Shown one piece after another: positions 48,121-48,754 of a DNA stretch of 64,000 nt. The DNA comes from Opitutaceae bacterium (GTDB lineage: Bacteria; Verrucomicrobiota; Verrucomicrobiia; Opitutales; Opitutaceae). The stretch is from the NCBI GenBank assembly GCA_028280945.1, contig JANQKV010000072.1, forward strand, positions 1 through 64,000. Reading direction: 5' to 3'. A model generated the notes under the pieces. The model searched no databases and was not told the DNA's origin. It saw only the letters and a program-made list of their open reading frames with translations. Every line of letters starts with the position of its first letter. Within the stretch, counting starts at the first letter, position 1. The translations under genes were made by a program, and so were the position numbers.

Positions 48121-48139
48121 TGTCACGTATTAAGTGACA
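48121..48139 (-). repeat. palindromic repeat copy A
   Basis: TGTCACGTATTAAGTGACA is the complement of the TGTCACTTAATACGTGACA consensus. The flanks extend the symmetry (GAGTT before, AACTC after), making a near-palindrome of about 29 bases. It is 95 bases past the end of the HTH gene in its transcription direction. Confidence 0.9.
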
Positions 48140-48165
48140 AACTCCGCGAATTTCAGGTTCGATAG

Positions 48166-48184
48166 TGTCACTTAATACGTGACA
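48166..48184 (+). repeat. palindromic repeat copy B
   Basis: TGTCACTTAATACGTGACA, 27 bases from copy A in the opposite orientation and 50 bases from the HTH gene stop. Identical to copy D. Confidence 0.9.
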
Positions 48185-48233
48185 GTTATAGCCAGCTTTC
48201 AATTGGTGGCAGCAGGTGGTGTTTCGAACAGAG

Positions 48234-48608
48234 CTAGAGTGGTAACTTTTTGCCCGCCTCTTTGGCCTCTACCCAGGCAAGCAGCCAAAGGGTTCGCTCG
48301 GCGTCGGGCATGCTCGATCCGCTGGCGAGAAAATCGCCGACCCGCTGTCTCGGCAGACCAAGGTGGCGCGCCAGAATCGCTTTTGCGCCGTAGTCCCGAG
48401 TGTGAATGATGAGTCGCCGACGAAGTTCGTTCCAAAGAGGAGAATCTTCTCCGGGTCGACGAGTGAGCCCCTGGGGGGCCTTTGGGCGTGGCGCTCGTTT
48501 GGCTTTGGCCCGTCGGTGATTTCGCGCTGCTTCAGCGGCGACCTCGATGATGTCCCAGAAGGTAGCAACCAAGGGCTCCATCGTGGGATGGACGTATTTG
48601 AGACTCAT
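48234..48608 (-). CDS. putative helix-turn-helix DNA-binding protein (124 aa), palindrome-associated
   Basis: The ORF could begin at a GTG inside palindrome copy C, but the ATG at 48608 is preferred. The N-terminal ~20 residues are helical, then comes a Lys/Arg/Pro linker (HRRAKAKRAPRPKAPQGLTR). Residues ~74-97 look like a helix-turn-helix: GAKAILARHLGLPRQRVGDF, followed by SGSSMPDAERTLWLLAWVEAKEAG. The linker and HTH fit a small regulator. Four copies of one 19-bp palindrome surround the gene: two downstream, one at the start and one further upstream. Binding to them is inferred, not shown. No named family is recognised. Confidence 0.7.
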   Translation of the reverse strand: MSLKYVHPTMEPLVATFWDIIEVAAEAARNHRRAKAKRAPRPKAPQGLTRRPGEDSPLWNELRRRLIIHTRDYGAKAILARHLGLPRQRVGDFLASGSSMPDAERTLWLLAWVEAKEAGKKLPL

Positions 48609-48623
48609 GGAATGACTTCTAAG

Positions 48624-48642
48624 TGTCACTTAATAAGTGACA
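48624..48642 (+). promoter_or_regulatory. palindromic repeat copy C at the start of the HTH gene (candidate operator)
   Basis: TGTCACTTAATAAGTGACA has 9-base arms in exact symmetry with a central A. It ends 16 bases upstream of the HTH gene ATG and 9 bases upstream of a 19-codon ORF on the opposite strand. The near-perfect symmetry and position fit an autoregulatory operator. The other copies differ at one arm position. Confidence 0.75.
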
Positions 48643-48650
48643 ATCCGGGA

Positions 48651-48710
48651 ATGAAGCCCGTGATGACATGCGGGGAGTTTTGGGAATGGCTCGGCTCCTT
48701 GGGCGTGTGA
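48651..48710 (+). CDS. possible 19-aa leader or gene remnant
   Basis: ATG at 48651 to TGA at 48710 codes MKPVMTCGEFWEWLGSLGV. It lies between palindromes C and D and divergently from the HTH gene. Trp/Phe content is unusual for random sequence, so a truncated gene or short peptide is conceivable. I see no ribosome-binding site of note. Treat as tentative. Confidence 0.25.
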   Translation: MKPVMTCGEFWEWLGSLGV

Positions 48711-48735
48711 TGGAAGCGTCTTTGGCGCATGAAAC

Positions 48736-48754
48736 TGTCACTTAATACGTGACA
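48736..48754 (+). repeat. palindromic repeat copy D
   Basis: TGTCACTTAATACGTGACA, identical to copy B. It lies 94 bases beyond copy C on the upstream side of the HTH gene, and 46 bases before the convergent end of the DUF1697 gene. Confidence 0.9.

Follow-up and report, generated by a model that had tools for sequence, protein, structure and literature searches.

Dispersed REP-like palindromes in Opitutaceae and a small helix-turn-helix protein as their probable partner

Many genomes of the bacterial family Opitutaceae contain a small XRE-type helix-turn-helix (HTH) protein and a dispersed type of palindrome that also brackets its gene, and we consider, with a probability of roughly 0.7, that the two form a two-part REP-like system. 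Palindromes of the REP kind occur widely among bacteria, and the protein best known to go with them is a transposase. In the mechanism that we propose, a vertically inherited XRE-type HTH protein would bind as a dimer to a site of 17-19 bp, mostly with a central TA-N-TA. The palindrome next to the HTH gene would most likely serve to repress that gene; the same palindrome is present at about 10-50 further places, mostly intergenic and often near the 3' ends of genes. For each HTH paralogue there is a private palindrome type, which changes in evolution along with the protein. Binding, dimerisation and autorepression by the HTH protein are steps that we infer.

The analysis started from a stretch of 64,000 nucleotides of an Opitutaceae genome, hereafter referred to as the window. 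Its HTH gene, an open reading frame of 124 amino acids, lies on the minus strand at 48234-48608, with the stop codon at 48234-48236 and the ATG at 48606-48608. The four 19-bp palindromes that a preliminary description had placed around it, between 48121 and 48754, were confirmed, three of them as exact matches and one with one mismatch. Given this orientation, copies 3 (48624-48642) and 4 (48736-48754, exact) are upstream of it, and copies 1 (48121-48139, exact, on the reverse strand) and 2 (48166-48184, exact) are downstream. Copies 1 and 2 form an inverted doublet past the stop codon, spaced 45 bp from start to start. Copy 3, which has the single mismatch, is indeed the most symmetric of the four, as first described; 15 bases separate it from the ATG at 48608, and it is the probable autoregulatory site of the HTH gene. 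The earlier statement that no copy occurs elsewhere is correct for the window, where up to 3 mismatches were allowed and 100 shuffles gave no match, but it does not extend to the genome. The 5.44 Mb genome has 36 sites of TGTCACNTANTANGTGACA and none of the reversed control pattern, which bears out the suggestion that the copies are part of a dispersed palindrome family. The 32 copies beyond the window are mostly intergenic, with no special placement upstream of genes. Altogether this genome has three gene/palindrome pairs, with 36, 16 and 24 sites, and the reversed controls gave 0.

The HTH assigned to the gene product in the preliminary description was recovered by modelling. The AF2 model (pLDDT 88) has a long N-terminal helix, followed by a Cro-like HTH at residues 57-117, with a helix at residues 87-96. 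The recognition-helix codons, placed by covariation and by the helix of the model (centre of the region of about residues 74-97), are at approximately 48351-48389 on the minus strand; within it, residues 86-92 are those that covary with the half-site of the palindrome. All Pfam matches of the protein are to HTH models, and the window protein alone stays under the cut-offs. Over the members of the family, HTH_3 is matched down to 1.9e-5 and YdaS in 43 of 53 members at E up to 0.1. The Pfam search of the HTH protein gave no match to a transposase or nuclease domain. In a fold comparison, C proteins, lambda repressor and YdaS scored Z 5-7, as did HNF1 and POU domains; this is compatible with the HTH assignment, though not strong on its own. 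A PDB search with a profile of 53 members gave homeodomain and Cro, and PHROGs and NCBIfam gave regulator-like proteins, in all cases as weak matches. Foldseek returned nothing at E below 0.001, and Rfam gave no match.

Homologues were found in 31 of 95 relatives, with 1-5 per carrying genome; these are 31 of the 61 Opitutaceae genomes and none of the 34 genomes from other families of the order. Identity to the window protein reaches 52%, within the same bacterial family. With the window protein as query, no named relative was found. The named members obtained by alignment search come mostly from Opitutaceae MAGs, and also from other Verrucomicrobiota MAGs. A profile run over 388 genomes of the phylum gave strong matches in Opitutaceae only and four weak ones elsewhere. 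Among the genomes searched, the protein family is thus essentially restricted to Opitutaceae. The dN/dS of the HTH gene is about 0.12 among three close species, which indicates purifying selection in close relatives.

A repeated palindrome is found close to the gene in 54 of 82 homologue loci, and on both sides of it in 48. The other 28 lack one under the strict criteria used, in part owing to contig ends or degenerate copies. The median gap between the start codon and the nearest upstream palindrome is 9 bases, and a palindrome that abuts the start codon fits autoregulation. The sequence of the type varies between genes (TGTCACGTATTACGTGACA, TGTAACCTAATAGGTTACA, TGTCATCTATTAGATGACA, ATGTTCGTATTACGAACAT, TTTAACCATATTGGTTAAA and others), in most cases with TA-N-TA at the centre. 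In the genomes looked at, about 10-50 scattered copies of the gene's own type are present as well. In contig C1 of genome G002, the listed sites are mostly TGTCACGTATTACGTGACA, and the sole HTH gene detected has TGTCACCTATTAGGTGACA as its bracketing palindrome. The preliminary description had expected gene and palindrome to occur together if the pairing is real, and apart if it is accidental. At least 3 matches to a generic palindrome pattern are present in 26 of the 31 Opitutaceae genomes with the gene, compared with 7 of the 30 without it (Fisher p 2e-6). Co-occurrence therefore stands for most genomes, and separation applies in small part, to some Opitutaceae genomes that have palindromes and no detectable gene: in 6 of the 7 gene-less genomes, rechecked by profile, there was still no HTH gene, with 3-19 palindromes each.

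The residues of the protein covary with the palindrome. Half-sites were aligned on their centre and compared with the protein columns of 53 non-redundant members. The strongest covariation is at residues 86, 87, 88 and 92, in helix 3, and at residue 76; for instance, K87 goes with AGT, P87 often with TTT, R87 mostly with TGT, and HRAR with TGTTC. Members that differ more in helix 3 also differ more in the half-site (r 0.58 between the two distances, against a maximum of 0.24 in 500 permutations), and the partial r, after accounting for the rest of the protein, is hardly lower at 0.56. These values are inflated by relatedness of the members, for which the control is partial. The N-terminal helix gave no signal (0.10). 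Each homologue thus comes with a palindrome of its own, to which its recognition helix is matched by covariation; this strongly supports a pairing of the two, and binding of each protein to its own type is strongly inferred. Of the earlier reading, a self-regulating protein with its own operators, the pairing is upheld by these two lines of evidence, and the operator set is too narrow a description.

A prediction made beforehand agrees with the pairing. We compared three close species (G453, G454 and G455), whose identity at one HTH locus is 92-94%. At two places, G453 carries a TTTCACTTAATAAGTGAAA-like palindrome in positions that hold the TGTAACC type in a sister species. We predicted for G453 a second HTH gene, bracketed by the TTTCACTTAATAAGTGAAA-like type and with an xPQR helix. 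Exactly one extra HTH gene was found, in G453 only; it has GTCGT-TTTCACTTAWTARGTGAAA-ACGAC on both sides and the helix VPPQRVHDYF, as predicted. A further site of this kind has an orthologue in G455, where the extra HTH gene is absent, and that orthologue has a one-base deletion in the core.

The HTH genes have kept their places. The order at the window locus, with neighbour names assigned from sequences, is MoxR, ArfB-like, HTH, DUF1697-like, lipoprotein-like and MOSC-like, and the locus from MoxR to MOSC-like is syntenic in 8 of 8 congeners within the stretches fetched. The HTH gene is there in five of these congeners, whose palindromes fall into four clear types and one degenerate set, and is absent from three. 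A second HTH locus, which adjoins a dus-like gene, is kept across genera with differing palindrome types, and in most species has the same type on both sides of the HTH gene. The comparison shows vertical inheritance of the HTH genes, with the palindrome type changing between species.

The change of type can be followed at single places in coding sequence. At one codon position of an epimerase-like gene, in-frame palindromes of five types are found in five species: type A in G000, D in G003, B in G007, TGTAACC in G455 and a degenerate TTTCAC-like palindrome in G453, while G454 has none. Each of these is the type of an HTH gene that resides in the same genome. The loci of the epimerase-like gene are L095:1541 (G000:C70), L131, L154, L220 and L301. 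Likewise, type A in G000 and type D in G007 occupy one and the same place of a DNA-glycosylase-like gene. Among 10 sampled D sites, 3 are at places of A sites of G000, when about 0.07 would be expected. Type D at places of type A, together with several types at one codon, indicates that positions persist and the type changes. In-frame palindromes within protein genes are also tolerated in the case of the Rickettsia palindromic elements, which are longer than the elements here, and we know of no cognate DNA-binding protein for them.

Among the three close species, many sites are found again at the orthologous position. Of 19 places in G455, 15 are intact in at least one sister species, for an expected survival of about 4% (13-base pattern, 77% flank identity); we used this retention count in place of a test of core versus flank identity, which is biased by the choice of loci. 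Bases outside the core pair across the site in 0.82, 0.67 and 0.60 of cases for the first three pairs, far above shifted controls, and there are 14 compensatory changes in the flanks versus 0-3 in the shifted controls. Such complementary flanks point to hairpins being selected for, or else to template switching as a means of correction. Four sites (L006:1570, L090:1543, L126:2573 and L132:1501) have 9-16 extra complementary bases beyond the core, specific to the site, which give long hairpins. Because this complementarity is specific to each site, we considered that the palindromes might have inserted into terminator hairpins already in place; no clean empty site that showed the stem came to light, and the idea was rejected. 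Most sites are single, and doublets 45-77 bp apart are present, many but not all of them inverted. Two type A sites at the ends of contigs C3 and C75 (L003:1501 and L097:1546) have near-identical flanks, so that a longer, assembly-breaking repeat carries the palindrome there. In contig C1 of G001, type C sites form a cluster at 4.7-5.5 Mb, and the cognate gene is at 5.17 Mb. The same contig has palindrome pairs at 470691/471036 and 2177997/2178341 with a near-equal spacing of 344-345 bp, which are perhaps remnants of bracketed units.

The position of the sites bears on whether the HTH protein is an ordinary autoregulated transcription factor, with the dispersed palindromes as operators of the promoters of its regulon. 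Simple codon-model gene calling placed 71 of 81 sites between genes (23 convergent, 11 divergent and 37 tandem) and 10 inside genes. The palindrome that abuts the HTH start codon, the conservation of many sites between species, and the sites between divergent genes, several of them of type B, are what a regulon would give. The sites are not preferentially upstream of genes, divergent gaps being rarer than convergent ones; several sites are inside genes or close to gene 3' ends, and the HTH gene is bracketed on its 3' side too, all of which makes a regulon unlikely. Our preference over ordinary promoter control is that the dispersed sites mark or insulate gene ends, perhaps aided by the hairpin that a core can form with its complementary flanks, which is a guess that is itself rather doubtful. 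A chromosome organiser of the MatP, SlmA or Noc kind, whose sites would mark regions of the chromosome, could account for dispersed conserved sites, and for the 12 of 18 type C sites of G001 that are within 500 kb of their own gene (p 4e-6, for an interval chosen post hoc). In the same genome, type A-like sites show no such concentration (3 of 21 within 500 kb). A housekeeping organiser would not be expected to have a private type for each paralogue or to be present so patchily, and we regard an organiser as quite improbable here.

Two other explanations involve transposition. The preliminary description had allowed that the outer copies could be the ends of a small mobile unit, in which case gene and bracketing palindromes would move as a transposon and leave the dispersed palindromes as remnants. 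Palindromes at both ends, the missing gene at the syntenic place of three congeners, and the second G453 gene, whose surrounding stretch is not the same in G454, are in line with it. The syntenic places of the HTH genes across species and genera, including five of eight congeners for the gene of the window, leave this proposal unsupported, as do the single gene copy per type and the lack of a transposase or nuclease match, and its chances appear very slim. Equally improbable is that a RAYT transposase of the genome copies the palindromes as true REPs, with the HTH protein binding them only secondarily. Y1 transposase genes are indeed present in 8 of 8 genomes tested, and site placement and doublets are REP-like. 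Yet none of the 20 Y1 loci inspected, out of 57 Y1 matches, has a palindrome within about 1.5 kb, while HTH loci usually have one, and the palindrome type follows the HTH helix.

The two-part system that we favour resembles REP/REPIN and RAYT (TnpA-REP) 'REPtrons' (PMC3733652, PMC8266576, PMC8049555) in its short, extragenic, dispersed palindromes, the cognate palindrome that flanks the gene, the vertical inheritance of the partner gene, and the greater frequency of repeats where that gene is present, and to some extent in its doublets, of which many but not all are inverted. REPs are extragenic palindromes that favour convergent and tandem gaps (PMC3733652), and the distribution of sites here is much alike. 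Unlike in REPtrons, the partner is an HTH protein without a Y1/HUH domain, copies are counted in tens and not in hundreds, several private types share a genome, and the flanks of 36 type A sites have no constant GTAG or CGTC tag. The architecture is that of REP/RAYT and the partner is an HTH protein, so we call the palindromes REP-like in population features and do not file them as REPs. With XRE/Cro-type regulators (C proteins, the lambda and P22 repressors, YdaS) the HTH protein shares the fold and a palindrome of about 17-19 bp that adjoins the start codon, and it differs by its long extra N-terminal helix, tens of genome-wide sites and a site also 3' of the gene. MatP, SlmA and Noc are likewise proteins with many conserved palindromic sites in the chromosome; rapid change of type and a gene bracketed by its own sites set the present system apart from them.

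The population features are thus REP-like while the partner, judged from its sequence, is an HTH protein, and we found no description of REPs with an HTH partner in the literature searched, in which subscription journals are sparsely covered. With a small DNA-binding protein as partner, binding and not transposition may be what maintains a REP-like population. These elements could constitute a new, transposase-free class of bacterial repeats, in which vertically inherited HTH proteins have private, genome-wide palindrome populations that are maintained, and re-specified in place when the helix changes, although we hold this wider proposal to be somewhat less probable than its opposite. Because gene and palindrome have changed together, repeat family and protein partner can be read as a pair. 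The scores of natural protein/palindrome pairs offer a table, already at hand, of which helix goes with which DNA sequence, and allow one to test directly how the sites of a genome respond as a set when their protein shifts in preference.
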